This document shows positions 9,801 through 34,471 of a DNA stretch of 38,389 bases, piece by piece. The notes under the pieces were generated by a model, which was given only the letters and a program-made list of their open reading frames with translations, made no database searches and was not told the origin of the DNA. A program made the translations under genes and the position numbers. Source of the stretch: Mycobacterium sp. Root265 (lineage in GTDB: Bacteria; Actinomycetota; Actinomycetes; Mycobacteriales; Mycobacteriaceae); contig NZ_LMJA01000018.1 in the NCBI RefSeq assembly GCF_001428895.1, positions 1-38,389 of the forward strand, in the 5' to 3' direction. Each line of letters opens with the position of its first letter. The stretch's first letter is position 1.

Positions 9801-10208
9801 TCGTCGAGCATCCTGCGCAGCGCGCTCGAACTGCCACATCGAGGTGAGGTCGTGGTCGAGGCGGCAGTCGACCGCGGCCACCGACCCGCCCGGTGGCGGC
9901 ACATCGTGCACCCGATCGGCGATCTGGTCGAACAGGCTGTGCGGTGCGGCCAGGTAATGCCAGGGGCGCCGGTGTGGCGTCGACAGCACCGCCGCGTACA
10001 CCAGGCCGTGTTCGGTGGCCAGGATGTGGGTGGCGGTGATCGTGAAGGGCGCGTGGGCCTCGGCCTGTCCCCATTCGGCAGCGGCCACCTGCCCGGCCAG
10101 GACGTGCAACCGGACGTCGTCGGTGATGAGTGCGGGGAAGTCGGGCCGGCCGATCTGCGGACCGACGTCCAGGCAGTCACGCAGCATGGCGCCGAAGTAA
10201 TCGAACAT
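9761..10208 (-). pseudogene. Conserved-looking small protein with apparent one-base frameshift
   Basis: Reading from the ATG at 10208, the frame gives a convincing protein (MFDYFGAMLRDCLD to LTSMWQFER) as far as about 9826. It then turns into low-complexity shadow translation running antisense across the reductase gene. One frame over, the sequence continues as LRRMLDDYPAFELELSGAQ and stops at 9761-9763. The two halves join if one base is removed from the GCGCGC run near 9820-9826, giving FERLRRMLDDYP. The intact product would be about 148 residues. I do not recognise the family. The extra base may be a true mutation, a +1 recoding site or a sequencing error. Confidence 0.6.
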
Positions 10209-10294
10209 GGAGGCCTCCCGGGAGAAATCCAGACGTCGAGGCCTCGAGCCTGCACCCGGGCGGGGGTGACGGTCAACCGCCTATCCTTGCCCGG

Positions 10295-14197
<3,903 letters not shown>

Positions 14198-14280
14198 CGG
14201 CGGCGAAGGATGCGGGGCCTGAAATTAGCCCAGCTATCAAAAACGCCACCGAAAGACTTGCCGCCGGTTACCGTGTCGTG

Positions 14281-15378
14281 GTGCAGCGTGTTGTCATCGC
14301 CGGGCTCGGCGACACCGGAGTCCTGACCGCACTCAAGCTGGCGAAGCGCTTCGAGGTCACCGGCATCTCCGCCAAACCCGGACTGCTCAGCGGGCAGGAA
14401 CTCGGGGTACGCATCGCCCGTCCGCACGAATGGGCACGCGACTACTGGACCGGGTTCGAACGGTTTCGCGGGCTGGACCGGGTGCGCACTCTGCACGGCA
14501 CCCTGACCGGGCTCGATCTGGCCGCCAGTACCGTCGGCGTCGACCGCTCCGGCGCCGTCGAGCACGTTCCCTACGACATCCTGGTCATCTCCACCGGTGT
14601 CACGAACGGGTTCTGGCGCAGGCCGCACCTGCAGTCCGCCGACGAGATCGATGCGGACCTGCAGGCGGTGCACCGGCGGCTGGCCGCGGCGAAATCCATC
14701 GCGGTGATCGGGGGAGGCGCCGCCGCGGTGAGCGCGGCCGCCAACCTCGCGGCCGCGCTGCCCGGCGCCCGGATCGGTCTGTACTACCCCAGCGAACACG
14801 CACTGCCGCAGCATCATCGGCGGGTGTGGCGCAGGATCGAGACCCGGCTGACGGCGGCGGGGGTCGGATTGCATCCCGGACACCGGGCGGTCATCCCCGA
14901 GGACCACGGGGACATCACCAGCGCGCCGGTGCACTGGAGCACCGGGCAGCCGGCGGTCAGCGCCGATGCGGTGCTGTGGGCGATCGGCCGGGTCAGCCCG
15001 AACACCGGCTGGCTGCCCGCAGAACTGCTCGACGACGGCGGATTCGTCCGTGTCACACCACAACTGCAGGCCCCCGGCCACCCGGAGGTGTTCGCGATCG
15101 GTGATGTCGCGGCCACCGATCCGCTGCGCGCCTCGGCACGCAGCCGCGCCGACGGTCTGCTCGCCCGCAACATTGCCGCGTACGCCGCGGGAAAGCCGAT
15201 GGGTGCCTACAAGCCACCGAAGGCCCGCTGGGGGTCGGTGCTCGGCGCCCAGGCCGACGGACTGGAGGTGTTCGCCCCGTCCGGTCAGGCGATGCGCTTC
15301 CCGGCCTGGTCGGTGCGTAACGTGCTCCAGCCCTGGATCGTCAAGCGGGGGATATACCGAGGCGTGCGGTCAGACTGA
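14281..15378 (+). CDS. FAD-dependent pyridine nucleotide-disulphide oxidoreductase (NDH-2/AIFM2-like)
   Basis: About 365 residues from the GTG at 14281; a GTG codon directly before it is equally possible. The first Rossmann motif VVIAGLGDTGVLTALKL binds FAD, and a second, IAVIGGGAAAVSAA, binds NAD(P)H. AIGDVAATDPLRAS near residue 275 is the FAD-ribityl motif. No CxxC redox pair is visible, so it is not a disulphide reductase. The pattern fits single-subunit quinone or ferredoxin-type NAD(P)H oxidoreductases. It lies 80 bp downstream of hrpA and overlaps the convergent FMN reductase by 38 bp. The acceptor is unknown. Confidence 0.8.
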   Translation: MQRVVIAGLGDTGVLTALKLAKRFEVTGISAKPGLLSGQELGVRIARPHEWARDYWTGFERFRGLDRVRTLHGTLTGLDLAASTVGVDRSGAVEHVPYDILVISTGVTNGFWRRPHLQSADEIDADLQAVHRRLAAAKSIAVIGGGAAAVSAAANLAAALPGARIGLYYPSEHALPQHHRRVWRRIETRLTAAGVGLHPGHRAVIPEDHGDITSAPVHWSTGQPAVSADAVLWAIGRVSPNTGWLPAELLDDGGFVRVTPQLQAPGHPEVFAIGDVAATDPLRASARSRADGLLARNIAAYAAGKPMGAYKPPKARWGSVLGAQADGLEVFAPSGQAMRFPAWSVRNVLQPWIVKRGIYRGVRSD

Positions 15379-15904
15379 TCAACTGATCCAGCAGTGCGTC
15401 GAGTTCACCCGCGCGGCGCTCCAGCGGAGTGAAACCGTCGGCGCCGAACTCCTGGAACAGGGACAGCGCGACCTGGGCCCGGACATCGAACATCTGAAAG
15501 TTCGCCACGATCTGCCGCCACTGCTCCACGGCACGCACGCCGCCGTCCGCTCCGTAGGACACGAAGCCGACCGCCTTGCCGGACCATTCGGGCCCCAGGC
15601 TGTCGACCGCATTCTTCAGCGCGCCGGGGACCCCGTGGTTGTACTCGGGCGTGACGAACACGAATCCGTCGCAGGCATCGATCGCCCGGCTCCACCGCCG
15701 GACGTGCTCCGAGTCGTACTCGCGGTTCGCTGCTGCGGGCGGCACCGGGGCGGTCAGCAGCGGGACGTCGAATTCCTTGAGGTCGATGACCTCGAACTCG
15801 CTGGCGTCCCGGCGTGCCGCCTGCTCGGCGACCCACTGCGCGACGGAGGCGCCGGCGCGGCCCTCCCGTATCGATCCGATGATGATGCCGATGGTCATAT
15901 TCAT
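15341..15904 (-). CDS. NADPH-dependent FMN reductase
   Basis: A 187-residue flavodoxin-fold protein. GSIREGRAG near the N-terminus binds the FMN phosphate and [17 protein letters not shown] is the family signature for isoalloxazine contact. A clear ribosome site (AAGGGAGA) precedes the ATG at 15904; an ATG two codons later is an alternative. Such enzymes reduce FMN, quinones or azo compounds with NAD(P)H. It diverges from the CoA-transferase gene. Its 3' end overlaps another NAD(P)H flavoprotein, but the genes are convergent, so no operon links them. Confidence 0.88.
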
Positions 15905-15965
15905 GTTCTCCCTTCGGTAGGTGCATCGCCTGTCAACGGCTCGAGTCTTCCCGAAACGCGCCGAT

Positions 15966-15990
15966 CGGTACCGTCGTCAATACGGTACGG
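15966..15990. promoter_or_regulatory. Candidate operator upstream of the CoA-transferase gene
   Basis: The palindrome CGGTACCG (15966-15973) and the near copy CGGTACGG (15983-15990) are 17 bp apart centre to centre. Together with flanking bases they form an imperfect inverted repeat with a 9-bp spacer. The right half overlaps TACGGT, a plausible mycobacterial -10 hexamer. This arrangement fits a TetR- or MarR-like repressor site, but no such regulator gene is adjacent. Confidence 0.35.
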
Positions 15991-16020
15991 TCGCCGGTAG
16001 ACCAGTGGAGAGGACGACAT

Positions 16021-17244
16021 ATGGGCAAGGTCATGGAGGGCGTCCGCGTCCTGGAGGTCGCGCAGTTCACCTTCGTCCCCGCCGCCGGCGCGATCCTGGC
16101 CGATTGGGGCGCCGACGTGATCAAGGTCGAGCACCCGGTGCGCGGTGACACCCAGCGAGGGTTCATCAACATGGGCGGGTTCGCGCTCGACCCCAACCGG
16201 CATCCGCTCATCGAGCACCCCAACCGTGGCAAGCGCAGCGTCGGCATCGACGTCTCCACCCCGGGCGGCCAGGAGGTGCTCTACGAGATCGCCAAGACCG
16301 CCGACGTCTTCCTGACCAACTACATGCCCGCCCAGCGACAGAAGAACAAGTTCGATGTCGAGCACATCCGCGCGGTCAACCCCAACATCATCTATGCCCG
16401 CGGCAGTGCCTACGGCGACAAGGGCGACGAACGCGACACCGGCGGTTTCGACGGCACGGCGTTCTGGACCCGCAGCGGTGTCGGGCACGCGCTGACCCCG
16501 GAGGATCTGGGCGGCGCACTGTCACAGGGCATCCCGGCTTTCGGTGACTCGATCGGCGGGATGAACATCGCCGGCGGCATCTCCGCGGCGCTGTTCCACC
16601 GCGAGCGTACCGGCGAGACCTCCGAGATCGATGTGTCCCTGCTGAGCACGGCGTGGTGGGCGGCAGGAGCCAGTGTCACCCAGGGGATGGAGACCGGCGA
16701 GACGATGCGCTCGGTGATGCCGAATTCGGTTGGCCCGACGGTGAACCCGTTCCTGGGCAACTATCTGACGTCGGACGGCGGCACCATCAACCTGTGTATC
16801 GTCAGCCCGACCGGCTACATCCGGGACGCCTTCGAGCATCTCGGGCTGCCCGAACTGGCCGACGATCCTCGGTTCTCCGATGTACTGCCGCTGATCGAAA
16901 ATGCCGCGGCCGCCGTCGAACTGATCACCGAATCGATCCGAAGCAGACCGTTCGAGTACTGGCGCAAGCACCTCAAGACCATGAAAGGCCAATGGGCGCC
17001 GTTCCAGAGCCTGGTGGACCTGGGCAGCGATGAACAGGCGCTGGCCAACGACATGGTCGTCGAGGTCGAAGGCTCAGACGGTCAACCGTTCAAGGTGGTG
17101 CGCGGGCCGGTGCAGTTCAACCACGAACCGCTCCAGACCACCCGGGCGCCGCAGGCCTCCGAACACACCGAGCTCGTGCTGATGGAAATCGGCCTGGACT
17201 GGGATCGCATCGAGGAGTTGAAGGACGCCGGCGCGATAGCCTGA
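16021..17244 (+). CDS. CaiB/BaiF family CoA transferase
   Basis: A 407-residue family III CoA transferase. [30 protein letters not shown] is the usual N-terminal pattern in this family, and Asp144 in [13 protein letters not shown] sits where the catalytic Asp of formyl-CoA transferase is expected. [12 protein letters not shown] and [11 protein letters not shown] lie in the large C-terminal domain. These enzymes move CoA between carboxylic acids through an aspartyl-CoA thioester. GGAGAGGA precedes the ATG. The histidine kinase gene begins 4 bp after the stop, so the two are probably co-transcribed. The acid substrate is unknown; in mycobacteria many homologues act in lipid, sterol or bile-acid-like catabolism. 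Confidence 0.88.
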
Positions 17245-17248
17245 GGAT

Positions 17249-18433
17249 GTGCACTCCCTCCTGCTCCGGGGCGCGCCGCTGCTGTTGACGCCGGTGCTCC
17301 TGGCAGTGAGCACCTTTCCTGGCGAGTTCCGGGTGTCGGCCGGCTACTGGGTACTGGGCTGCGCAGCGGCCGTGGTCTTCCTCTTCGGGGGCCGGTGGCC
17401 GTTTCCGGTGTCGCTGACGCTGTCCGCGCTGGCGATCCCGATGTTCGCGGCGCAGGCGTGGGGGCTGTCCGGACTGGTGCCCTATCTCGCAGCGGTGTCT
17501 TTGGCCGAGCTCACAGCACGCACCGACCGGGACCGGGTCATCGCCGCCGCGGCCGCCGGTTGGCTGCTCGCCCTGGTGCTGGGAGTACAACTCGACGATC
17601 ACGCCCCGAGGTGGAGCGCCGCCGATGTCACCACGGTGGCTGCGGCGTTCGGGCTGCCGCTGTTGCTCGGCCTGTACCTGCGCGGCCAACGGCAGGTCCG
17701 GGCCCTCGCGGAATCGGAGGTCCGCGCTCAGGAACGGGGTGCCATGGCCCGCGAGTTGCATGACCTGGTCGCCCACCACATGGCGTCCATCGCGCTGCGC
17801 GCCGGCGTCGCCGAACACGTGATCGGAACGGCGGACCCGCGGGTCGCCGAGGTGCTCGACGATGTGCACCGCACCGCGGCCGATGCGCTGGCCGATATCC
17901 GGCGCTGGCAGGCCGCGCTGCGTGACCCGGCCCTGCACGAGGTGGCCATGGTGGAGCCCGAGGCGCTGTGGAGCGAGATCGAGGCCGCCGTGCAACGCAC
18001 CCGCGCAGCGGGTTTCACGGTGCACGCGGAGATCGACCGGGCGATCACCGGACTGGACGCGATGGCGCGGCTGACCGTGCTGCGGGTGACCCAGGAGGCG
18101 CTCACCAACGTGATGAAGCATGCCGATCCGGGCGGGCCCGTCGAACTGTCCATCGCGCGACACGGTGGCGGTGTGGAGATCCGCGTCGACAGCGCCGGGG
18201 TCGACGAACATCAGGGTGGTCTTGGGGTCATCGGCATGTCGGAGCGGATGCAACTGTGCGGCGGCACGTTCACCGCAGGCCGCAGCGAGCACCGCGGCGC
18301 TGATCGCCGCGGTGCATCGGGTGGCCGACGGCGACTTCGTGCTTTCGCCACACCTGTTGCAGCGGTTGGTATCCCGGGCGGTCGGCGCGCGTGTCCCCGA
18401 CGGTCCCGAGGCGGTACCGCTGACGACGCGTGA
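17249..18433 (+). CDS. NarL-type sensor histidine kinase, C-terminus lost
   Basis: The first 140 or so residues hold several hydrophobic segments, so the sensor is membrane-bound. The HisKA_3 dimerisation/phosphoacceptor helix has His171 in ARELHDLVAHHM. The ATPase N box is RVTQEALTNVMKHAD and the G box is GLGVIGMSERMQLCGGTF. After GGTFTAGR (about base 18280) the kinase would normally run on for a short beta strand. Here the frame instead enters Arg-rich nonsense to 18433, while another frame carries the C-terminal half of a response regulator. The ATPase core is nearly complete, so some activity is conceivable, but the partner receiver domain is missing. Confidence 0.7.
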   Translation: MHSLLLRGAPLLLTPVLLAVSTFPGEFRVSAGYWVLGCAAAVVFLFGGRWPFPVSLTLSALAIPMFAAQAWGLSGLVPYLAAVSLAELTARTDRDRVIAAAAAGWLLALVLGVQLDDHAPRWSAADVTTVAAAFGLPLLLGLYLRGQRQVRALAESEVRAQERGAMARELHDLVAHHMASIALRAGVAEHVIGTADPRVAEVLDDVHRTAADALADIRRWQAALRDPALHEVAMVEPEALWSEIEAAVQRTRAAGFTVHAEIDRAITGLDAMARLTVLRVTQEALTNVMKHADPGGPVELSIARHGGGVEIRVDSAGVDEHQGGLGVIGMSERMQLCGGTFTAGRSEHRGADRRGASGGRRRLRAFATPVAAVGIPGGRRACPRRSRGGTADDA

Positions 18434-24484: not shown

Positions 24485-25930
24485 ATGGACTGGCTCGCGG
24501 CGTCGGAGTCATGGTGGGGCCGGGTCGTGCTGGAACGCGGTATCGCCGCCGTATATGTGGTCGCGTTCCTCTGCGCGGCGCTGCAGTTCCGGGCCCTGCT
24601 CGGCAGCAAGGGCCTGACTCCGATCCCGAAGTTTTTGGAGCGGAGACCATTTCGCTCCTCGCCCAGCCTATTTCACCTGCACTATTCTGATCGCTTCTTT
24701 GCGGCGGTGTGCTGGGCCGGTGTCGCGGTGTCGGTGGCAATGGTCTTCGGACTGGCCGACGTGGTGCCGATCTGGGCCGCGATGGCAGTGTGGCTGATTC
24801 TGTGGGCGGCGTACCTGTCGATCGTCAACGTCGGCCAGGTCTGGTATTCGTTCGGCTGGGAGTCCCTGCTGCTGGAAGCGGGCTTCCTCGCGGTGTTTCT
24901 GGGTAACGACGAGACCGCGCCGCCGCTACCGGTACTGGTGCTCGCGTGTTGGCTGCTGTTCCGCGTCGAGTTCGGGGCGGGCATGATCAAGATCCGCGGC
25001 GACCGGTGCTGGCGGAATCTCACGTGCCTGGATTACCACCACGAGACACAACCCATGCCCGGGCCGCTGAGCTGGTTCTTCCACCGGATGCCGAAACCCC
25101 TGCACCGCATCGAGGTTGCGGGCAATCACGTCGCCCAACTGCTGGTTCCGTTCGGCCTCTTCGCGCCACAACCGGTGGCCGGTGTCGCGGCTGCGATCAT
25201 CATCGTGACCCAGTTGTGGCTGGTGGCATCGGGCAACTTCGCCTGGCTCAACTGGTTGACCATCGTGTTGGCCTGCAGTGTGATCGACGACAGCACCTAT
25301 GGCCGGACGGAACCGGGCGATGCGCCCACAACCTTGCCGGTCTGGTTCGGTGTCGCGGTCCTCGCGTTCACCGTGTTGGTGGTGGTGCTCAGCTGGCGGC
25401 CCGCTCGCAATCTGCTGTCCCGCGAACAACGGATGAACAGCACATTCGACCCTCTGCACCTGGTCAACTCGTATGGCGCGTTCGGCAGCGTCGGGAAGAT
25501 CCGCCATGAGGTGGTGTTCGAAGGCACTTCGGATACGGCCATCGACGAGCACACCACGTGGCGGGAGTACGAGTTCAAGGGCAAGCCCGGCGCACTCGCA
25601 CGGACACCACGGCAGTGGAGCCCGTACCACCTGCGCCTGGACTGGCTCATGTGGTTCGCCGCGATCTCGCCGTCCTACGCCCGGCCCTGGATAGGCGCCC
25701 TGTGCGACGCCATGCTGTCCAATGACAAGGACATCATGAAACTGCTGCGCCACAACCCTTTCCGTGAACAGCCGCCGACCTGCGTGCGTGCCGTCCTCTA
25801 CCGGTACCGATTCACTACCCCGAGCGAGTTGATCCGGGACCGGGCGTGGTGGCACCGCGAGCTCGTCGGTGGATACCTCGCGCCCGTCAGCCCAGCGCTG
25901 CGACCTGGGCGACCGTCAACGCCGAGGTGA
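24485..25930 (+). CDS. Lipase maturation factor (LMF1-like) membrane protein
   Basis: A 481-residue polytopic membrane protein. The LMF signature is strong: YSFGWESLLLEAGFLAVFLG, then FGAGMIKIRGDRCWRNLTCL, DYHHETQPMPGPLSWFFHR and AGNHVAQLLVPFGLFAP. The C-terminal part has FVNSYGAFG-like LVNSYGAFGSVGKIRHE and a soluble domain after the last helix. In animals LMF1 matures secreted lipases in the ER; bacterial homologues have no established role. It follows the MPT63-like gene directly. Its 3' end overlaps the convergent regulator by 44 bp. Confidence 0.88.
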   Translation: MDWLAASESWWGRVVLERGIAAVYVVAFLCAALQFRALLGSKGLTPIPKFLERRPFRSSPSLFHLHYSDRFFAAVCWAGVAVSVAMVFGLADVVPIWAAMAVWLILWAAYLSIVNVGQVWYSFGWESLLLEAGFLAVFLGNDETAPPLPVLVLACWLLFRVEFGAGMIKIRGDRCWRNLTCLDYHHETQPMPGPLSWFFHRMPKPLHRIEVAGNHVAQLLVPFGLFAPQPVAGVAAAIIIVTQLWLVASGNFAWLNWLTIVLACSVIDDSTYGRTEPGDAPTTLPVWFGVAVLAFTVLVVVLSWRPARNLLSREQRMNSTFDPLHLVNSYGAFGSVGKIRHEVVFEGTSDTAIDEHTTWREYEFKGKPGALARTPRQWSPYHLRLDWLMWFAAISPSYARPWIGALCDAMLSNDKDIMKLLRHNPFREQPPTCVRAVLYRYRFTTPSELIRDRAWWHRELVGGYLAPVSPALRPGRPSTPR

Positions 25931-27557
25931 GCCGCAACAGATCCCGCGGCCGCGACAACTGCAGTCCGGTCAACTCTTCGAGGCGCTTGATCCGCTGGGC
26001 AACCGTGTTGGGATGCAGATGGAGTGCGGTCGCGGTGGCGCGACGGTCCAGGCTGTGCTCCAGGTGCACGCGCGCGGTGTGGATGAGCTCGGTCTGCCGG
26101 GCCCGGTCGTAGTCGAGGACGGGGCCGAGCACGGTGCGCGCGAACGCGCGCAGCCGTTGCGGATCGTCGAGCTGCAGCAGCAGATGGTCGATCGTCACAT
26201 CGGCCATGTCGATCACGGTATTCGCCTGTGCATTGGCCGCTAAATTCATTGCACCGCAAAGAGTTCGGTGGGCATCGGGTAGATCGTTCACCGTGCCGGT
26301 GGCGGAGACCGCGGCCACCGCGAACTCGACGGCCCCGGCTGCGGACAGGTGGCCGACGAGTCTGCGGGCCAGGTCCGCAGCGGCTGTGTGCGACTCCGGT
26401 GAGCACACCAGCACCAGATCTCCGCGGAACAATGCGGCCAGCGGCCGGGGTGCGATATCGGCGGCGAACCGGTCGGTGATCGCGAGAACCCGCTCGGCGC
26501 GTTCATGTTCGGGCCAGCGGGTGGTGATCAAGGTCTGGCTGCCCGACAGGTCCCAGCCCAGACGCCGCGCCCGGTCGAGTAGCGAGCTGGTTGCCGCGGC
26601 ATCGGTGAAATCAGCAGTCAGCAGGTCGGCCAGTAGCGAGCCGCGCAGGCGTTGTTCCACCTCGGCAGCGGTGCGGGCCCGCAACAGTTCCAGCGCGGTG
26701 ACCACCGCGGCGTGTTCCACCGCGCGGATATCGAGAGCCGACAGCGCCGTCTCACCCGCGACCTGTATCCGGGCCACCACCGCGCCGTCGAGGACCACGC
26801 CGGATTCCCAGTGATCGTCGACCGGGGTGACGGTGGGGCTGAGATCGCCGCCGTGGACCTCGTCGATCAGCACGGCCCGGCCGAGCAACTCGGCCAGTGC
26901 GTCGGCGACTCCGGCGACCCCCTCGCCGCGCAGTGCGGTGGCCATCAGCAGCCCGTGCACCTCCTCGGCGCGGCGGAGTTCCCGGATGGTGGCCTGCTCC
27001 TGGGCCCGCAGTTGCGCGGTCCCCAGTGCGATGGCCACCTGGGTCGCCAGCGTGGTGACGAGGCTGACCTCGGCGGCATCGAAGCTGTGCGGCCCGGTGC
27101 GGTAACCGTTGAGCGCACCGACGACCGCGCCGGCCCGGCGCAGCGGCACCGAGATCAGTGCCCGGTAACCCTGTTCGTGGGCCACCCCGCCCCAGCCGAA
27201 CCCGGGTACCAGCTCGATGTCCTCCAGGGTCACCACCTCGCCGGTGCGGAACGCGATGCTGGTCGGGGCCTCCTGTTCGCCGTGGACGTCCAGCAGGATC
27301 GGGCGGTCGGCATTGACCTGCGCGATGTAGTCGCCGGACAGGCCGTGCGACCCGACGATGGTGAGCGCCGCGCGTGCGTCATCGGGCAGGAACACCGCGC
27401 AGAAGTCGTAGCCGAGCAGAGTGCAGGCGGTGCGGGCCACCCGGTCCAACAGCTGTGCGACGGGCTCATCCCCGCCGACGGCCTCACCGATACCGGCCAG
27501 CGCGTGCAGCCAGCGTTCCAGGATCGGGTCATCCTGGTGGTGTATCTGATCAGACAT
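25887..27557 (-). CDS. GAF and PucR/CdaR-type helix-turn-helix regulator
   Basis: About 556 residues from the ATG at 27557; an ATG four codons upstream is also possible. The N-terminal third is a GAF domain (LLDRVARTACTLLGYDFCAV to GYRALISVPLRRAGAVVGAL). A middle GGDEF-like/CdaR region follows. The C-terminus has the PucR helix-turn-helix LDRRATATALHLHPNTVAQR, then IKRLEELTGLQLSRPRDLL. Such proteins activate or repress catabolic genes on binding an aromatic or purine-like effector. It diverges from the eight-gene transport/catabolic operon across about 106 bp that holds two palindromes, so it is the probable regulator of that operon. Confidence 0.85.
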   Translation of the reverse strand: MSDQIHHQDDPILERWLHALAGIGEAVGGDEPVAQLLDRVARTACTLLGYDFCAVFLPDDARAALTIVGSHGLSGDYIAQVNADRPILLDVHGEQEAPTSIAFRTGEVVTLEDIELVPGFGWGGVAHEQGYRALISVPLRRAGAVVGALNGYRTGPHSFDAAEVSLVTTLATQVAIALGTAQLRAQEQATIRELRRAEEVHGLLMATALRGEGVAGVADALAELLGRAVLIDEVHGGDLSPTVTPVDDHWESGVVLDGAVVARIQVAGETALSALDIRAVEHAAVVTALELLRARTAAEVEQRLRGSLLADLLTADFTDAAATSSLLDRARRLGWDLSGSQTLITTRWPEHERAERVLAITDRFAADIAPRPLAALFRGDLVLVCSPESHTAAADLARRLVGHLSAAGAVEFAVAAVSATGTVNDLPDAHRTLCGAMNLAANAQANTVIDMADVTIDHLLLQLDDPQRLRAFARTVLGPVLDYDRARQTELIHTARVHLEHSLDRRATATALHLHPNTVAQRIKRLEELTGLQLSRPRDLLRLTSALTVAQVAALG

Positions 27558-27606
27558 AATCTCCAGCATAAGTGTGTGCCTGACAACATTGCCCGACCGG
27601 TTGCGC

Positions 27607-27633
27607 CACGAGCATCGTGTTCTGGTGATCACC
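27607..27633. promoter_or_regulatory. Two adjacent palindromes, candidate operators of the transport/catabolic operon
   Basis: CACGA-GCA-TCGTG (27607-27619) and GGTGATCACC (27624-27633) are both perfect inverted repeats, 4 bp apart. They lie between the divergent PucR-type regulator and the substrate-binding protein gene, 30 to 57 bp upstream of the latter's ATG. Position makes them candidate sites for the regulator; the assignment is inferred. Confidence 0.45.
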
Positions 27634-27663
27634 GTCACAAGACACCGTTCGAGGAGAGTGCCG

Positions 27664-28701
27664 ATGCGCAGAACTGCCAAAGCTCTGATGGCCCTGGTGG
27701 CCGCTGCCGTCTTGGCGCTGACCGCGGCGTGCTCGGCCGGCCTCGGTGGGCCCGCGTCCTCGCGGTCCGCCCAGGACGGCGTCATCCGGTTCACCTTCGC
27801 GCCCGACCCGATCTGGGACTACATGCACGACGCCGGCATCGTCGAGGAGTGGCAGCGCGACACCGGCTACACCATCGAGACCAGCGCCACCTGGGACGAG
27901 TTCGGCCTCTTCGCCGGCGGGCACGCCGACATCATCTCCACTGCTTCCTTCGAGGTGCCCGGCCTGGAGGAGCAGACACAGCGCGAGACGGTCATCATCG
28001 GGCGATACAACGCCGAGCGCAGTCGCATCATGGTCCGTACCGATGATCCCGCCCAGTCGCTGGAAGACCTGCGCGGCCGGCGGCTCGGGGTGTTCACCAC
28101 GGTCTCGGGGACGCTGGTGTGGAGCGCGCTCATCAAACAGATGCACGATATGCAACTACTGGACGGCGATTTCGACATCGTCGTCGCCGACATCCAGAAC
28201 CTGTCGAACCTGTTGGCGCGCGGCGAGATCGACGCGTGCATCTGCTATCCCGACCTCTCTGCGAGGGAGCTGCGCAGCGGCGCGGTGCGGGCGCTCTACG
28301 ACGGGAAGTCCTCGGCGGACCTGTTCGCCGAACTCAACGCGCCGGGCCACGACGGTCCGATGGGCAATGTGTTCGTCGCCCGCAAGGACTGGGTCGACGG
28401 CCATCCCGGTGAAGTATCGGCCTTCCTGGATCTGTGGGACCGCGGCCTGCGGGAATGGCAGCAGCACCGCGACGTCATGATCGAGCGCTACCCACAGCAC
28501 TTCGCCGTCTCCACCCCGGAGGACATCGAGTTCATGAAGCAGTATGTGGCCGAACATGACTGGGTGGTCGACGAGGTTCGCTTCGACCAGAAATGGGCGG
28601 ATGACGAGAGTTCGATCTTCGACCTGATGCGTACCACCGGCGTGATCGGCGACGACATCACCGATCCGCAGTTCCTGCCAGCAGAAGGAGTCCACCAGTG
28701 A
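27664..28701 (+). CDS. ABC transporter substrate-binding lipoprotein, NMT1/SsuA-like
   Basis: A 345-residue protein with GAGGAG seven bases before the ATG. The signal peptide ends in lipobox LTAAC with Cys23, so the protein is anchored outside the membrane. The rest shows the NMT1/TauA/SsuA-type binding fold: RFTFAPDPIWDYMHDAG near the mature start, DLRGRRLGVFTTVSGTLVW in the hinge region and ARGEIDACICYPD in the second lobe. Such proteins bring in sulfonates, thiamine precursors, or aromatic and heteroaromatic acids. The following permease overlaps its stop (GTGA). The acidic, Trp-rich pocket region gives no clear substrate. Confidence 0.88.
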   Translation: MRRTAKALMALVAAAVLALTAACSAGLGGPASSRSAQDGVIRFTFAPDPIWDYMHDAGIVEEWQRDTGYTIETSATWDEFGLFAGGHADIISTASFEVPGLEEQTQRETVIIGRYNAERSRIMVRTDDPAQSLEDLRGRRLGVFTTVSGTLVWSALIKQMHDMQLLDGDFDIVVADIQNLSNLLARGEIDACICYPDLSARELRSGAVRALYDGKSSADLFAELNAPGHDGPMGNVFVARKDWVDGHPGEVSAFLDLWDRGLREWQQHRDVMIERYPQHFAVSTPEDIEFMKQYVAEHDWVVDEVRFDQKWADDESSIFDLMRTTGVIGDDITDPQFLPAEGVHQ

Positions 28702-29528
28702 CCCAGACCGTCACGGCGCGGCCGGCCCAGCGTGAACCGCGCGACACGCCGCCACGAGCCACCGTCCACCGACCCTGGGGGAGTCGCCGCTGGCTGGTGT
28801 CCGGGCTCGCCCTGATCGGCGCGGTCGGACTGTGGGCGCTGGCCGCGGTCATCGTCAACGACCCCATCCTGCCGAACCCCGCCGACGTCGCGGACCGGGT
28901 GCTCGCGATCGTCGTTTCCGGTGAGGCGCTCACCAACTTCGCGGCGAGCATTGCCAAGATCGCAGCAGGATTTGCCATCGCCATGGTGATCGGATTGCTC
29001 ATCGGATTCGCCATGGGCCGTTCGAAATTCATGACGTCCTATTTCTCGCTGCCGTTGTTCGTGCTGGGCAACATGCCCGGTCTGACCTACGCGGTGTTCG
29101 GCCTGCTGATCTTCGGTGTGGGCGCCGGCGGACCGATCGTGGTGTCCGCGCTGGTGGCCACCCCGTTCATCGCGATGAACGTGGCCGAGGGGGTGCGGTC
29201 GGTGGACGGGAACCTGCTGGCGATGTGTCACGCCTTCGAACGCCGGCGGTCCGACATCCTGCGCCACCTCTATCTGCCCGCGGTGACGACCTTCGTCTTC
29301 GCCGGTGTGCGTTACGGGTTCGCGATGGCGTGGAAGGTCGAGGCACTCACTGAGGTGTTCGGCGCCAGCAGCGGAGTCGGGTTCATGATCCGCAAGGCCT
29401 ACCAGGAGTTCCAGGTCGACGACATGCTCGCCTGGACCGCGCTGTTCATCATCGCGATGGTGCTGATCGAACGTGGCCTGGCCCATCTGGAGAATCGCTT
29501 CTTCGCCTGGCGGAAGGAAATCGCATGA
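28698..29528 (+). CDS. ABC transporter permease 1
   Basis: A 276-residue SsuC/TauC-type permease with a GTG start overlapping the previous stop. It has about six membrane helices. The cytoplasmic coupling segment contains GVRSVDGNLLAMCHAFERRR, where the usual EAA-loop Gly is replaced by Glu, followed by LRHLYLPAVTTFVFAGVRYG. The C-terminal VFGASSGVGFMI matches the family. It is one of two different permeases in this operon, which implies a heterodimeric channel. The next gene begins with an ATGA overlap. Confidence 0.88.
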   Translation: MTQTVTARPAQREPRDTPPRATVHRPWGSRRWLVSGLALIGAVGLWALAAVIVNDPILPNPADVADRVLAIVVSGEALTNFAASIAKIAAGFAIAMVIGLLIGFAMGRSKFMTSYFSLPLFVLGNMPGLTYAVFGLLIFGVGAGGPIVVSALVATPFIAMNVAEGVRSVDGNLLAMCHAFERRRSDILRHLYLPAVTTFVFAGVRYGFAMAWKVEALTEVFGASSGVGFMIRKAYQEFQVDDMLAWTALFIIAMVLIERGLAHLENRFFAWRKEIA

Positions 29529-30304
29529 CCACCCTCACCTCCTGGCAGCGCCAACTGCGCAGCCAGAGCAGCTCCGCGGCAGCCGTTCTCGCGGCGCTGG
29601 CGACCATCATCGGGGCCTGGCAGCTCGCGGTGATCGTCGGTAACCGGGTTCCGTCACTGGCCGAAACCATCGGCAGGCTCGGCGCCGAAGCCGCCATCGG
29701 CGAGCTCTGGGGCAACCTGGCCATCAGCATGAACCGGTTCCTGCTGGGACTCGTCGCGGCGCTGGTCGTCGGCGCGGTCATCGGCGTGCTGATGGGACTG
29801 TCCAAGATCGCCGACCTCGCCTTCTCCGACCTGAATGCGGCGGCGCTGGCCATCCCGGCGGTGATCTGGGCGCTGCTGACCACCATGTGGTTCGGGTTCG
29901 GCTGGCTGACACCGGTCGTCACGGTCTTCCTGTCCGGGCTGCCGTTCGTCGTCGTCAACATCGCCAAGGCCACCAGGGCGGTGCCCGCCGACCTGATCCT
30001 GATGGCACGGGCGTTCGGGGTATCGCGTACCCGGGTGCTGCGCGAGATCGTTGCGCCCGCGGTCGCCGGATCTACCGTGGCCGCAGTGCGTTTCGCGATC
30101 ATGAGTGCCTGGAATGGCCTGCTCCTCGCGGAGTGGTTCGGGTCTACCTCCGGTGTCGGGTGGCGGTCGCGCTACTGGTACGACGCCAACCAGCTCGACG
30201 GCTTCCTGGCCTGGGTGCTGGTCTTCATCCTGCTGCTGGTCATCGCCGACCTGCTCATCCTCGGCCCCATCGAACGCCACGCCACCCGCTGGCGTACCGC
30301 CTAG
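29525..30304 (+). CDS. ABC transporter permease 2
   Basis: A 259-residue SsuC/TauC-type permease starting inside the end of permease 1 (ATGA). It has about six membrane helices. The EAA-like loop reads AVPADLILMARAFGVSRTRV, followed by LREIVAPAVAGSTVAAVRFA, and the end has WFGSTSGVGWRSRYW. The coupling loop is more canonical than that of permease 1. It probably pairs with permease 1 in a heterodimer. The ATPase gene begins 15 bp downstream with GAAAGAGAG as ribosome site. Confidence 0.88.
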   Translation: MTTLTSWQRQLRSQSSSAAAVLAALATIIGAWQLAVIVGNRVPSLAETIGRLGAEAAIGELWGNLAISMNRFLLGLVAALVVGAVIGVLMGLSKIADLAFSDLNAAALAIPAVIWALLTTMWFGFGWLTPVVTVFLSGLPFVVVNIAKATRAVPADLILMARAFGVSRTRVLREIVAPAVAGSTVAAVRFAIMSAWNGLLLAEWFGSTSGVGWRSRYWYDANQLDGFLAWVLVFILLLVIADLLILGPIERHATRWRTA

Positions 30305-30319
30305 AAAGAGAGCGACACC

Positions 30320-31066
30320 ATGGCCTCCATCGAAATCCAGAGTCTGGTCAAGGAATTCACCGACCGGCGCGGCGACGTCACCCGCGTGATCGACGGCATC
30401 GACCTGACCATCACCGGCGAGACCTTCGTCTCGGTCGTCGGGCCGTCGGGCAGCGGAAAGACCACGCTGCTCAACATCGTCTCGGGCATCGAGACCCACA
30501 CCTCCGGCAGTGTGCGGCTGCGATCCGGCGGGCGCGACGCCCGCGTCGGCTATGTCTTCCAGGACCCCCGGCTGCTGCCGTGGCGCACCGTGATGGCCAA
30601 CCTCGGATTCGTCCAGCACGAGCGGGACGGCTGGCAGCAGCGCGCCGAGCACTACCTCGACCTGGTCGGGCTGAGCCACTGCGCCAACAGGTTCCCCGCC
30701 CAGCTGTCCGGCGGTCAGCAGCAGCGCATCGGTATCGCGCGCGCCTTCGCCGTCGAACCCGATGTGCTGCTGATGGACGAGCCGTTCAGCCATCTCGACG
30801 CCATGACGTCACGGACCCTGCGCGAACATCTGGAACGCATCTGGCTGGAATCCCGGCGCACGGTCATGTTCGTGACCCACGATGTGACCGAGGCGGTGCA
30901 ACTGTCCGACCGCATCGTGGTGCTGGCTCCCGGCGGCCGCGTGCACGAGGTCATCGACGTGGACCTGCCCCGGCCACGCCGGGCGTCCGATCCCGCCGTC
31001 GCGGTGCTGCAGGCCGAGGTGCTGGCCCGGTTCGAGGCGCTCGAAGCGATGGGAGTGGCATCGTGA
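30320..31066 (+). CDS. ABC transporter ATP-binding protein
   Basis: A 248-residue ATPase. Walker A is GPSGSGKTTLL with Lys47, the Q loop is in VFQDPRLLPWRTV, the signature is LSGGQQQRIGIARAF, Walker B is VLLMDEPFSHLD and the H loop is FVTHDVTEAV. These match the SsuB/TauB group that energises NMT1-type importers. The GTG of the amidohydrolase gene overlaps its stop, so transport and catabolism are translationally linked. Confidence 0.93.
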   Translation: MASIEIQSLVKEFTDRRGDVTRVIDGIDLTITGETFVSVVGPSGSGKTTLLNIVSGIETHTSGSVRLRSGGRDARVGYVFQDPRLLPWRTVMANLGFVQHERDGWQQRAEHYLDLVGLSHCANRFPAQLSGGQQQRIGIARAFAVEPDVLLMDEPFSHLDAMTSRTLREHLERIWLESRRTVMFVTHDVTEAVQLSDRIVVLAPGGRVHEVIDVDLPRPRRASDPAVAVLQAEVLARFEALEAMGVAS

Positions 31067-32049
31067 CGCTGCGCACCGGCCCCATCGACGTCCACGCACA
31101 CTGGTTGCCGCAGGAGCTGTTCGGGCTCGCACCGGGATCGCCGTTGCCCGCGCTGCGGGACCGCGACGGCGAGCTCTGCCTCGGCGAACTCCCGCTGTCC
31201 ATCGAGACGGGCGCGATGAGCGATGTGACCCGGGTGCTCGCCGACACCGATGCGGCCGGCCTGGGCTCCCGGGTGCTGTCCGCGCCGCCGTTCGCATTCC
31301 CCGTCGCTCACACCGACGGTGTCGACGATTTCGTCGGCGGGTTCAACGGCGCACTGGAAAAGGTGTGCCGTGACAACGCGGACCGGCTGCTCGGCCTGGG
31401 CCTGGTCACGCTGCACGACCCGGACGCGGCCCGCAAACAGATCGAGACGATGGCGTCTGCGTCGGTGATCCGCGGTATCGCGGTGCCCCCGCTGCTCGGC
31501 GGCACATCGTTCGACGTCGATCCGATGCGTGAGATCCTCACCGCCGCAGCCGAGAACGACATGGCGGTGCTGGTGCACCCGATGCAGCTGCCGCGCCCGG
31601 AATGGTCGTCGTACTACCTGGCCAACCTGATCGGCAACCCCGTGGAGTCCGCGACGGCGGCCGCCGCGCTGACCCTGGGCGGGGTGCTGGACGCGCTGCC
31701 CACGCTGCGGATCGTGCTGGTGCACGGCGGCGGGTGCGCTCCGGGGATCGTCGGCCGCTGGCAGCACGGCTGGGATCAGCGCGCCGACGTGCGGGCGGGG
31801 AACGGCAGGCCACCGCGGGAGGCGTTCGCCGACCTGTGGTTCGACACCCTGACCCACGATGTTGCCGCGCTCGAACTGCTGCGCGCACAGACCGACCCCA
31901 CCCACCTGATGTGCGGGAGCGACTATCCGTTCGACATGGGAACGCCTGACCCGCTGGGGCTTCCGCGTGCGGCCGGTATCGACGACACCGCGCTGGAGAC
32001 CAATGCCCGGGCATTTCTCGGGCTCGACAACGCAGGAGAGAGCGCATGA
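31063..32049 (+). CDS. ACMSD-family amidohydrolase, probable decarboxylase
   Basis: A 328-residue amidohydrolase_2 protein with a GTG start overlapping the ATPase stop. The metal site matches aminocarboxymuconate-semialdehyde decarboxylase: His11 and His13 (DVHAHW), His172 (VLVHPM), His221 (LVHGGG) and Asp287 (GSDYPF). The segment NLIGNPVESATAAAALTLGG is also typical. The family removes carboxylate from aromatic or muconate-like rings in a non-oxidative, Zn- or Mn-dependent reaction; examples are gamma-resorcylate and 3,6-dihydroxypicolinate decarboxylases. Its location between an importer and a pyridine-type hydroxylase supports decarboxylation of an imported ring acid. The true substrate is unknown. 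Confidence 0.85.
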   Translation: MTLRTGPIDVHAHWLPQELFGLAPGSPLPALRDRDGELCLGELPLSIETGAMSDVTRVLADTDAAGLGSRVLSAPPFAFPVAHTDGVDDFVGGFNGALEKVCRDNADRLLGLGLVTLHDPDAARKQIETMASASVIRGIAVPPLLGGTSFDVDPMREILTAAAENDMAVLVHPMQLPRPEWSSYYLANLIGNPVESATAAAALTLGGVLDALPTLRIVLVHGGGCAPGIVGRWQHGWDQRADVRAGNGRPPREAFADLWFDTLTHDVAALELLRAQTDPTHLMCGSDYPFDMGTPDPLGLPRAAGIDDTALETNARAFLGLDNAGESA

Positions 32050-33248
32050 CCGAGGCGAAGAAGAACTGGGCCGGTCACCGGGCATTGGTGATCGGTGGCT
32101 CGATCGGTGGTCTGACCGCAGCGCTGTTGCTGCGCAGGGTCGGTTTCGACGTCGACGTGTTCGAGCGCACCCCGACATCGCTGGACGGGCGCGGCGGCGG
32201 GATCGTGCTGCAGCCCGACACCCTGCGCTGGTTCGTGGAATGCAGTGACCAGCATCCGGAAAATGTCAGCACCTCAACCCATTTCGTGCAGTACCTGGGA
32301 CCGGACAACGAGATCCTGCACCGTGACCCGGCGCCTTGGAGCTACACCTCCTGGGGCACGTTCTACCGGGCGCTGCTGTCCGATTTCGGCACCTCGCACT
32401 ACCACCTGGGTGAGTACGCGGCCGGATACGATCAGGACTCCGACGGTGTCGAGGTGCGGTTCACCTCGGGCCGGTGTGAGCGGGCCGACCTGGTGGTGTT
32501 CGCCGACGGGATCAGCTCGCCGAGCCGGCGCCGGATCTCACCGGGATCCACGCTGGAGTATTCGGGCTACGTCGGCTGGCGTGGCACCGTGCCCGAAAAT
32601 CAGGTCAGCGCAGGGACCTTCGACCTGCTCCATGATGCGATCAGCTACAGCGTCGCACCGCACACCCACATCAACGTGTACCCGATCCCGTCCGGAGACG
32701 GCGGACTCGGTGTGGGGGAGCGCCTGCTGAACTATGTCTGGTACCGCAACGTCGCCGAAGGTCACGAGCTCGACGAGCTGATGACCGACAAGCGTGGCTT
32801 CCTGGCGGGGGTGTCACTGCACCCGGGCCAGGTGCAGGACCGGTTCATCGACGAGATGCGTGCGGCGGCACCGGAACTGCTGGCTCCGGCGGCAGCAGAG
32901 GTGGTACTGCGCACCGAACAGCCCTACCTGCAGGCGGTCTACGATGTGCAGGCGCAGCAGATGGCGACAGGACGGGTCGCGCTCATCGGTGATGCGGCCA
33001 GCGCCGCGCGCCCGCACGCCGCCGCGGGCACCGCCAAGGCCGCCGCGAACGCCTGGGCTCTGTACGACGCGCTGTCCGACAGCGCCGATATCTCCGAGGC
33101 ACTCGCCAAATGGGAGCCCGGCCAGCTCGAGCTGGCGCACAGCCTGATGCGCCGGGTCAAGGAGATGGGCACCCGCTCGCAGGTGGACTGCACCTGGGTG
33201 CCCGGCGACCCCGACAACCGGTTCGGCCTCTACGGCCCGGGCCACTGA
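32046..33248 (+). CDS. FAD monooxygenase, 2,6-dihydroxypyridine 3-monooxygenase-like
   Basis: A 400-residue class A flavin hydroxylase coupled to the amidohydrolase by an ATGA overlap. The FAD motif is LVIGGSIGGLTAALLLR, the DG motif is VVFADGISSPSRRR and the GD motif is RVALIGDAASAARPHAAAG. From memory, the segments YPIPSGDGG, WYRNVAEGHELDELMTDKRG and RPHAAAGTAKAAA closely follow the nicotine-pathway 2,6-dihydroxypyridine 3-hydroxylase DhpH. It would use NAD(P)H and O2 to hydroxylate an electron-rich ring. Nicotine-pathway partners are not in the window, so a related hydroxypyridine or phenol is likelier than nicotine itself. Confidence 0.85.
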   Translation: MTEAKKNWAGHRALVIGGSIGGLTAALLLRRVGFDVDVFERTPTSLDGRGGGIVLQPDTLRWFVECSDQHPENVSTSTHFVQYLGPDNEILHRDPAPWSYTSWGTFYRALLSDFGTSHYHLGEYAAGYDQDSDGVEVRFTSGRCERADLVVFADGISSPSRRRISPGSTLEYSGYVGWRGTVPENQVSAGTFDLLHDAISYSVAPHTHINVYPIPSGDGGLGVGERLLNYVWYRNVAEGHELDELMTDKRGFLAGVSLHPGQVQDRFIDEMRAAAPELLAPAAAEVVLRTEQPYLQAVYDVQAQQMATGRVALIGDAASAARPHAAAGTAKAAANAWALYDALSDSADISEALAKWEPGQLELAHSLMRRVKEMGTRSQVDCTWVPGDPDNRFGLYGPGH

Positions 33249-33261
33249 CAAGGAGACAACG

Positions 33262-33726
33262 ATGACCACAAACAACCCCCTAGTCGCTTCGCTCCTGCCC
33301 GCCGGAGCCTTCCTCACCGACGCCCCGCTGGCCGGCACCTTGGTGGCCACCGATTTCGAGGGCTGGAGCGATGAGCTGCGCGCCGAGTTCGACGCCTACT
33401 CCCACGACGGCTACGTCGGCTCCCGGCTGCTGAGCCAGAACGAGCGGGTCCGGGTGTGGGAGATCCGGCTGGCACCCGGGGAGCGCTGGCATGCTCATCG
33501 GCACGTGCTGGACTACTTCTGGACCGCGGTCAACGCCGGTCGCAGCCGCCAGCACACCTCCGACGGCACCACCCGGGACGTGTCCTACGGCGCCGGTGAG
33601 ACCCGGCATTTCACCTTCGCGGCGGGCGAGTTCCTGTTGCACGATATCGAGAACGTCGGCGACACCGACCTCGTCTTCACCACGGTGGAACACCTCGACT
33701 CGGCGAACGCACCGCTGGACGTGTGA
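33262..33726 (+). CDS. Cupin-domain protein
   Basis: A 154-residue single-domain cupin 13 bp after the monooxygenase, with a strong AAGGAG site. Cupin motif 1 gives His77 and His79 (RWHAHRHVLDYFW), with Asp84 where Glu is usual. Motif 2 gives His127 in FAAGEFLLHDIEN. The 3His plus one acidic ligand set can hold a metal. It could be a ring-modifying oxygenase, an isomerase or a binding protein for the pathway product. Only its operon position supports a role in catabolism. Confidence 0.75.
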   Translation: MTTNNPLVASLLPAGAFLTDAPLAGTLVATDFEGWSDELRAEFDAYSHDGYVGSRLLSQNERVRVWEIRLAPGERWHAHRHVLDYFWTAVNAGRSRQHTSDGTTRDVSYGAGETRHFTFAAGEFLLHDIENVGDTDLVFTTVEHLDSANAPLDV

Positions 33727-33735
33727 AATGGGGGC

Positions 33736-34164
33736 ATGACCGAGAAATTCGATCCGCATGCGCTGCTGGCCGAGGCGAGGCTCGGGGTGCTGGCCACCAT
33801 CAAGTCCAGCGGCGTCCCGCAGCTGTCGCCGGTGACACCGTTCTACGACCGGACCGCCGACGTGATCTACGTGTCGATGACCGAGGGCCGCGCGAAAACG
33901 ACGAACCTGCGCCGTGACCCGCGCGCGGCGGTGGAGGTCACCAGCGCCGACGGGTGGGCATGGGCGACGGCGGAGGGGCCGGTCACGCTGACCGGGCCGG
34001 GTGCCGATCCGCACAGCCCAGAGGTCGAGGCGCTGGTGGATTACTACCGCAGCGCAGCGGGTGAGCATCCCGATTGGGATGAGTACCGGTCGGTGATGGT
34101 GTCGGACCGCCGGGTACTGATGGCACTGCGGGTGGAGCGGGTGTACGGCGAGAAGCTGCGCTAG
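33736..34164 (+). CDS. PPOX-class, probably F420-dependent, Rv1155-like protein
   Basis: A 142-residue split-barrel flavin/deazaflavin protein. LGVLATIKSSGVPQLSPVTPFYD, AKTTNLRRDPRAAVEV and MALRVERVYGEKL match the Rv1155-like PPOX/F420 family. Members bind F420 or FMN and reduce unsaturated or ring compounds, though many are uncharacterised. It starts 9 bp after the cupin and is the last gene before a strong hairpin, so it appears to belong to the operon. A reductive step on a ring-derived intermediate is possible. Confidence 0.85.
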   Translation: MTEKFDPHALLAEARLGVLATIKSSGVPQLSPVTPFYDRTADVIYVSMTEGRAKTTNLRRDPRAAVEVTSADGWAWATAEGPVTLTGPGADPHSPEVEALVDYYRSAAGEHPDWDEYRSVMVSDRRVLMALRVERVYGEKLR

Positions 34165-34173
34165 CCGAATTCA

Positions 34174-34197
34174 GCGGCGGACCGGATGGTCCGCCGC
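34174..34197. terminator. Strong hairpin, likely bidirectional terminator
   Basis: GCGGCGGACC (34174-34183) and GGTCCGCCGC (34188-34197) form a perfect 10-bp stem with a GGAT loop. It lies between the convergent ends of the PPOX gene and csbD-like gene. There is no U-tract, which is common for mycobacterial terminators. Confidence 0.75.
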
Positions 34198-34206
34198 CGA
34201 ACGAGA

Positions 34207-34380
34207 TCAGCTGGTGAACGTGTCCTTGATGTTCTCGCCGACCTTCTTGACGCCCGAGACGCCCTGGTCCTTCTTGCCTTCGGCCTTCAGTTCGTCATTG
34301 TTGGTGACGTCGCCGACGACCTCTTTGGCCTTGCCGATGGCGTCCTCGGCTGCGTTCTTGGCCTTGTCCACGATTCCCAT
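34207..34380 (-). CDS. CsbD-like stress protein
   Basis: A 57-residue, highly charged, Lys/Asp/Gly-rich protein. It starts at the ATG at 34380, preceded by AGAAAGGAAA; the frame is open further upstream but lacks CsbD features there. The core GKAKEVVGDVTNNDELKAEG is the CsbD family repeat. CsbD-like proteins are abundant under general stress in many bacteria, with unknown biochemical role. A 7-bp inverted repeat lies 18 bp upstream of the start codon. Confidence 0.9.
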   Translation of the reverse strand: MGIVDKAKNAAEDAIGKAKEVVGDVTNNDELKAEGKKDQGVSGVKKVGENIKDTFTS

Positions 34381-34398
34381 GTTCGTTTCCTTTCTGGG

Positions 34399-34421: not shown

Positions 34422-34471
34422 GGACCTCGGAACCGCACGCGCAGTGGGGCGTGAGGCTGCTCACAGGTGCC

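Follow-up and report, generated by a model that had tools for sequence, protein, structure and literature searches.

The question raised by positions 27664-34164 (+) of contig NZ_LMJA01000018.1 from Mycobacterium sp. Root265 is which compound a compact eight-gene operon takes up and in which order its enzymes act upon it. The stretch analysed, positions 1 to 38,389 of the contig, is referred to below as the window. The first-pass annotation of this DNA had described the genes as a single unit for import and catabolism, a view that the tight operon and its conserved core sustain. Tentatively, and at somewhat less than an even chance, we propose that this operon, controlled by a PucR-type regulator, imports a small N-heteroaromatic acid and begins its breakdown by means of an amidohydrolase (AMH), a flavin hydroxylase (FMO) and a cupin.

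Several parts of this picture are direct observations, namely the operon anatomy, the families of the proteins, the conserved gene set and an operator-like motif. The seven gene junctions measure, in order, -4, -4, +15, -4, -4, +13 and +9 bp, in agreement with the earlier description of eight genes with no gap above 15 bp and four 4-bp overlaps. Three adjacent genes form the core: the AMH (31063-32049, +), an Amidohydro_2 protein that resembles ACMSD and is probably a metal-dependent decarboxylase; the FMO (32046-33248, +), a DhpH-like class A flavin hydroxylase; and a small cupin (33262-33726, +) with a likely three-histidine metal site.

Among 401 genomes of the family, AMH was counted as present above 50% identity, cupin at E<=1e-30 and FMO at E<=1e-100. 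The initial AMH count of 20 fell to 18 after two weak rows (G232, 37%; G151, 34%) were dropped; FMO was found in 18 genomes and cupin in 19. All three occur in 17 of the 21 genomes with any of them, which marks the core as a genuine unit. The distance between AMH and FMO is within 0.6 kb in 15 of these 17 genomes and about 5 kb in the other two. The first-pass annotation had named the occurrence of the genes apart in most genomes as the outcome that would tell against it, and this is not what the genomes hold. In two mycobacteria (G411, G412) AMH and FMO are present, but the whole genome yields no cupin at E<=1e-10; there, the cupin step can be replaced or dispensed with.

The same core recurs in other actinobacteria, where the annotation had suggested looking for it. 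Of 144 stretches that were confirmed, the best 80, amounting to 79 loci, made up a set of named loci; the 72 with AMH of at least 50% identity were counted and seven were set apart. The nearest AMH among them is that of M. frederiksbergense LB501T (96%), and the Root265 genome resembles that of a Mycolicibacterium. FMO and cupin, each at an identity floor of 45%, both lie within 3 kb of AMH in 50 of the 72 loci (47 of 63 when only loci flanked on each side by 3 kb or more are considered), and at this floor neither ever stands there alone; in L081 and L117 a second-type FMO, which falls below the floors, adjoins AMH with no cupin there. Other neighbours of AMH are a binding-protein gene (within 9 kb, 30 loci), an aldehyde dehydrogenase (ALDH; within 6 kb, 28 loci), an old-yellow-enzyme (OYE; within 3 kb, 22 loci) and the large subunit of a molybdenum hydroxylase (within 6 kb at a 40% floor, 8 loci). 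FMO was missing within 3 kb at 22 AMH loci; a whole-genome check of 14 of these (FMO at E<=1e-60, cupin at E<=1e-10) found FMO in 10 and cupin in 8. The FMO limit would overlook the second type (about 35%, E 1e-51).

The AMH-FMO-cupin module, found in at least 10 actinobacterial genera, adopts two architectures. In the importer type, represented in Mycolicibacterium, Actinomadura and Nocardioides, a PucR gene stands opposite the genes for a binding protein, two permeases, an ATPase, AMH, FMO and cupin. In the ALDH type of Rhodococcus, Nocardia, Arthrobacter, Amycolatopsis, Saccharopolyspora and others, it stands opposite ALDH, an MFS importer, FMO, cupin, AMH, OYE and sometimes a VOC protein. 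The importer adjoins the ALDH-type operon across PucR in five loci (L088, L100, L109, L113 and L116). Partial counterparts exist in alpha- and betaproteobacteria: Agrobacterium and Rhizobium plasmids bear AMH, ALDH, FMO, cupin, VOC and OYE together, and Paraburkholderia bears FMO, AMH, a second FMO, OYE and a set of molybdenum-hydroxylase genes, with a VOC gene before FMO and no cupin annotated.

The AMH scores 76.6 bits against Amidohydro_2 (PF04909; cut-off 26.4). Its profile is nearest to ACMSD among solved structures (1.6e-68), followed by isoorotate decarboxylase (5e-30) and 5-carboxyvanillate decarboxylase (5e-27) and, more weakly, by 2,3-dihydroxybenzoate (1e-20) and gamma-resorcylate (9e-16) decarboxylases; besides ACMSD, its solved kin are mostly ring-acid decarboxylases. 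H11, H13, H172, H221 and D287 are invariant in all 45 aligned rows and match the HxH, His, Asp and catalytic His of human and bacterial ACMSD, so the earlier label "ACMSD-type" holds for fold and active site alike. We take these residues to be the metal ligands and the catalytic histidine. A substrate-carboxylate Arg of ACMSD is likewise conserved (45/45). The AMH differs from ACMSD at the position of human Arg47, presumably a second ligand of the substrate carboxylate, which is Ser in 41 rows (including Root265), Arg in 2, Phe in 1 and Tyr in 1. Seven alphaproteobacterial relatives at 33-36% identity (L123-L129) form a separate observation: TctA- and TctC-type genes accompany six of them, several also carry luciferase-like monooxygenase, Ldh_2 and carboxymuconolactone-decarboxylase-family genes, and none of the seven has FMO or cupin beside it at the neighbour-count thresholds; their gene set possibly represents another unassigned pathway.

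The FMO contains FAD_binding-like and FAD_binding_3 domains and passes NF005566 (465.3 bits, cut-off 333). By far its best solved relative is 2,6-dihydroxypyridine hydroxylase (PDB 2vou, 5.7e-76; next match 6.8e-21), which supports the earlier description of a DhpH-like hydroxylase; salicylate hydroxylase is a much poorer match (1.3e-11).

The cupin matches no Pfam family at E<=0.001 and was named from its PDB matches; a profile built on it reaches a cupin without a name (9u8n, 1.2e-10) and, with a weak score, oxalate decarboxylase. It is the best-conserved core protein between phyla, with 55-61% identity to homologues of Bosea, Agrobacterium and Methylobacterium; the corresponding values are 34-39% for FMO and 28-33% for AMH. 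H79, H81 and H127, which we assign to the HxH of cupin motif 1 and the His of motif 2, are invariant in 34/34 actinobacterial rows and in 7/7 rows of a cross-phylum alignment, and together with H116 they are kept in the five aligned proteobacterial homologues. This conservation suggests that the cupin is likely a three-histidine metalloprotein. Its true start may lie about 10 codons further in, as many orthologues have 144-146 aa. In M. frederiksbergense LB501T (L057, position 12182) a cupin match was seen with no full reading frame recovered, by a possible frameshift or a miss of the script. Roseobacter plasmids hold the same cupin family beside glyoxalase, SDR and alkene reductase genes (L134, L135) or RidA and VOC genes (L136), with no FMO or AMH annotated near it, and in Methylobacterium (L133) the cupin gene is convergent with that of a DhpH-family FMO, which is followed by uraD and uraH.

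The importer is encoded by the first four genes: an NMT1/THI5-like substrate-binding lipoprotein (27664-28701, +; PF09084, 39.8 bits, cut-off 20.5), two ATP-binding cassette (ABC) permeases (28698-29528 and 29525-30304, both + and both with BPD_transp_1, PF00528) and an SsuB/TauB/NtrD-like ATPase (30320-31066, +; ABC_tran, PF00005). The claim of a complete NMT1-type importer therefore stands as far as the transporter goes; it does not extend to the pathway, since other genera add ALDH and OYE genes to the core. Cys23 of the binding protein, presumably the lipobox cysteine, is invariant in 25/25 aligned sequences. No PDB sequence matches this protein at E<=0.01, so its ligand cannot be read from the sequence, and the best NCBIfam match of the ATPase, an aliphatic sulfonate ATPase, stays at 197 bits, below the cut-off of 395. 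Another importer cluster of the same genome (L154, G000:C7:47000-66500, positions 9563-18010) has ABC ATPase and permease genes followed by a molybdenum-hydroxylase large subunit, 35% identical to that of the Saccharopolyspora locus L090, then two genes sized like the other subunits of L090 and one for a 411-aa protein.

From these families we hypothesize the following route. A small N-heteroaromatic acid, most likely a hydroxypyridine carboxylic acid, would enter through the NMT1-type ABC transporter. To judge from its fold and active site, AMH would then remove the ring carboxyl group, and the DhpH-like FMO, as its family suggests, would add a hydroxyl next to the existing ones. The cupin would act on the FMO product, most likely by opening the ring, which is the weakest step. 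The substrate may be a 2,6-dihydroxypyridine carboxylate, either dihydroxynicotinate or citrazinate, which would most likely be converted to 2,6-dihydroxypyridine, then to 2,3,6-trihydroxypyridine and finally to an open-chain acid. The operons of other actinobacteria also encode ALDH, an OYE-type reductase and a separate importer of their own.

The choice of an N-heteroaromatic acid rather than a plain phenol acid is favoured because some AMHs and related flavin hydroxylases adjoin molybdenum hydroxylases. Of the earlier "hydroxypyridine- or phenol-carboxylate", a (hetero)aromatic acid thus stays likely, but its phenolic half is less favoured. In Saccharopolyspora (L090, L102), AMH lies directly behind a molybdenum hydroxylase with large, FAD and 2Fe-2S subunits, and L081 of Streptomyces samsunensis has AMH close to a large subunit and to a second-type FMO. 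M. yunnanensis (L166/L171) has a second-type FMO and molybdenum-hydroxylase subunits across PucR from an ALDH-MFS-FMO-cupin-OYE operon, with AMH elsewhere (L056). On the Agrobacterium and Rhizobium plasmids, a set of cytochrome c, 2Fe-2S and molybdenum subunits with a further FMO is found roughly 8-20 kb from the cupin. In Agrobacterium, Bosea and Paraburkholderia this additional FMO scores above the NF005566 cut-off; no molybdenum-hydroxylase set is present in the 18 kb viewed in Bosea, and the Phyllobacterium record is unannotated.

These links also bear on the order of steps. Two Kitasatospora genomes and Streptomyces spinosus encode a molybdenum hydroxylase and an AMH (57-58% identity) and, within the limits of the whole-genome check, neither FMO nor cupin. 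If its function is kept there, AMH acts on a compound whose formation requires neither this FMO nor the cupin, which favours decarboxylation as the first step rather than an ACMSD-like role after ring cleavage.

A number of points weigh against our proposal. Five of the eight AMHs linked to molybdenum hydroxylases (L081, L085, L090, L102 and L117) are second copies, matching ALDH-type loci being present in the same genomes (L093, L089, L091, L121 and L078), and the four in the tree (L077, L081, L090 and L101) form a clade of their own; both facts weaken the argument on the order of steps, and the substrate of these AMHs may differ. The FMO search at E<=1e-60 would have missed a second-type FMO in the genomes just mentioned. 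The molybdenum hydroxylases could be aldehyde oxidases, the best NCBIfam match of that in L090 being glyceraldehyde dehydrogenase (577 bits, below the cut-off of 790). No molybdenum hydroxylase is linked to the operon in the window, and five lie elsewhere in the genome. At two of these clusters (G000:C7 and C13) and at an FMO2 relative (G000:C3), no gene matched the references for OYE, cupin or AMH; this check, which covered loci other than L149, L152 and L153, thus revealed no upstream steps in the Root265 genome. A further weak point of the proposal is that the best relatives of ALDH and OYE in the Root265 genome are only 42% and 34% identical, respectively.

The enzymes themselves add to this side. 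ACMSD, the closest relative of AMH, acts on a ring-opened compound. The grouping of FMO with the DhpH-like nicotine-plasmid protein (support 100/99), a point in favour, is qualified by the long branch of that protein (2.19) in a tree whose root is arbitrary and serves for drawing only. The gene set recurs across phyla without strict orthology of all its members, since the proteobacterial FMO and AMH fall into other clades than the actinobacterial ones. The cupin has no named close relative in the profile search. Moreover, its reaction may be broader than pyridine ring opening, given the roseobacter plasmids without FMO or AMH and the urate-type setting in Methylobacterium, the latter weakening its link to pyridines alone. 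A purine (urate) pathway, which the Methylobacterium locus brought to mind, was rejected, as FMO scores 96 bits against the HpxO cut-off of 500.

The best surviving alternative, although we consider it unlikely, is an order of reactions like that of 3-hydroxyanthranilate degradation, in which FMO would hydroxylate an aromatic acid, the cupin cleave it, AMH decarboxylate the semialdehyde, ALDH oxidise the product and OYE reduce a muconate. The far greater proximity of AMH to ACMSD than to isoorotate, 5-carboxyvanillate or gamma-resorcylate decarboxylase speaks for this order, and cupin, AMH and ALDH share one operon in Rhodococcus and others. However, Ser usually replaces the Arg47 of ACMSD, the operon encodes no protein resembling 3-hydroxyanthranilate dioxygenase (none was reached from the cupin profile at E<=0.01, and the Variovorax enzyme was unmatched at E<=1e-4), AMH accompanies a molybdenum hydroxylase in the three genomes where neither FMO nor cupin was found at the limits given, and Root265 has no close ALDH or OYE.

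A benzenoid version is improbable. Here, a resorcylate- or hydroxybenzoate-type acid would lose its carboxyl group, become a trihydroxybenzene through hydroxylation and have its ring opened by the cupin. The superfamily of AMH does include decarboxylases of gamma-resorcylate, 2,3-dihydroxybenzoate and salicylate, and the MFS importer of other loci is nearest to aromatic acid:H+ symporters (180 bits, below the cut-off of 419). Nevertheless, the FMO is nearest to the pyridine enzyme DhpH rather than to salicylate hydroxylase, and links to molybdenum hydroxylases would be unexpected for phenol acids.

Still more improbable is a route in which ALDH or the molybdenum enzyme first makes the acid from a pyrimidine-, pyrrole- or furan-type aldehyde for AMH and FMO, for although ALDH or a molybdenum-hydroxylase large subunit neighbours AMH in 28 and 8 of the 72 loci, isoorotate decarboxylase is the second-nearest solved family of AMH and NMT1-type binding proteins for thiamine pyrimidines would fit, Agrobacterium and L117 carry both ALDH and molybdenum hydroxylase and the mycobacterial operon has neither.

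Returning to the proposed hydroxypyridine-carboxylate route, we compared it with known systems. In the nicotine plasmid cluster of Arthrobacter NicSoilB11, the protein taken as DhpH by its position (annotated as FAD-dependent monooxygenase, and compared with FMO rather than with 2vou) is 38% identical to FMO over 386 residues. This cluster also shares a PucR regulator and includes Kdh, presumably a molybdenum enzyme. It differs in that no AMH is annotated in the 19 kb viewed, where cyclase-family, Dabb and SRPBCC proteins are encoded nearby, and the NicSoilB11 cupin gave no match to that of the operon at E<=1e-4. Actinobacterial degradation of isonicotinate or nicotinate is also the subject of papers outside the open-access literature; among the matches listed from the latter, titles and abstract openings do not describe the gene set, which leaves room for an earlier account of the operon elsewhere, and no paper there combines "dihydroxypyridine" with "cupin".

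The picolinate pic pathway resembles the operon in pairing an amidohydrolase-family decarboxylase, PicC, which acts on 3,6-dihydroxypicolinate, with a hydroxylase acting on a pyridine acid, and differs, in the sections cited, by its PicDEFG lower pathway (PMC10142695). The picolinate route as such was rejected, as no PicDEFG-type gene is annotated in the plasmid loci viewed (L030, L130-L132, L139); PicC was likened to AMH by description only. The kpi cluster of Arthrobacter sp. IN13 likewise directs a flavin monooxygenase and an amidohydrolase-fold protein at 4-hydroxypyridine, but, as far as the cited text describes them, KpiC belongs to Pfam01979 and not to PF04909, and KpiA is nearest to 2-heptyl-3-hydroxy-4(1H)-quinolone synthase (PMC7356986). 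A kpi-type pathway was rejected on account of the different amidohydrolase family. In the hxn nicotinate pathway of Aspergillus, an old-yellow-enzyme acts on inferred 2,3,6-trihydroxypyridine, and by analogy the OYE of ALDH-type operons might act similarly; the sections cited describe no AMH or cupin, and HxnV is of the phenol 2-monooxygenase type (PMC9304392).

A divergent regulator, which the earlier description of the eight genes does not include, belongs with the operon. It occupies 25887 to about 27557 (-), about 100 bp from the binding-protein gene, and contains GAF_2, GAF, GGDEF_2 and HTH_30 domains (scanned on 25887-27569; the ATG start gives 27557). Of the 50 loci that combine AMH with FMO and cupin, 47 have a PucR relative no more than 8 kb from AMH. 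Upstream regions were compared for 21 importer-type loci (the window and 20 of the 30 with a binding-protein frame; of the ten left out, five were not divergent, L115 was too short, and no PucR frame was recovered in L055, L063, L069 and L073) and for 19 ALDH-type loci (only the first 175 bases of those, among 22, whose PucR is on the minus strand). The inverted repeat [AG]TGT-N6..11-ACAT, at 27569-27592 in the window, is a candidate PucR operator: it occurs in 20/21 importer-type and 18/19 ALDH-type regions against shuffle means of 1.1 and 0.8, counts to be read with the fact that the pattern was picked after the alignments had been viewed and that kinship inflates them, though the two types are well diverged. 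A second pattern, GTGA-N6-TCAC, which we take to be a CRP/GlxR-like site and which appears as GTGATCACCGTCACA at 27625-27639, is present in 21/21 importer-type and 0/19 ALDH-type regions. Another match, GTGA-N6-TCACA, lies downstream of the operon at 34451-34465; at least two matches arose in 6 of 100 shuffles.

The last gene (33736-34164, +) encodes an Rv1155-type PPOX protein (PNPOx_N; TIGR03618, 135.2 bits, cut-off 79.05; PDB 1w9a, 4.6e-39). Its earlier inclusion as an F420/PPOX pathway member was not upheld: such a gene lies within 3 kb of AMH in only 2 of the 72 loci and about 5-6 kb away in L066 and L115, so we regard it as accessory here. The "strong hairpin" reported after the operon (about 34174-34197) is real as a structure, with a 10-bp stem, a 4-nt loop and a fold over 34150-34240 of -39.9 kcal/mol (z -3.06; 1/200 shuffles equally good), but it is not a textbook terminator, since no T run follows the stem, and it is absent from the terminator-scan list. 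Immediately past it, a small convergent gene (34207-34386, -) resembles, by eye, the CsbD stress-protein family, and upstream of the regulator a gene at 24485-25930 (+) resembles lipase maturation factors in the same way. Among plasmid DNA records, none spans 80% of the operon and the best covers 37%.

A wider claim, which we regard as doubtful, is that the cupin founds a new family opening the trihydroxypyridine ring after a DhpH-type step, and that PucR-AMH-FMO-cupin is an unassigned dihydroxypyridine-carboxylate route with exchangeable importers. If the pyridine reading is true, the operon would provide candidate genes for the decarboxylase and the ring-opening step in the breakdown of N-heteroarenes, in mycobacteria among others, together with a cupin that lends itself to direct activity tests.

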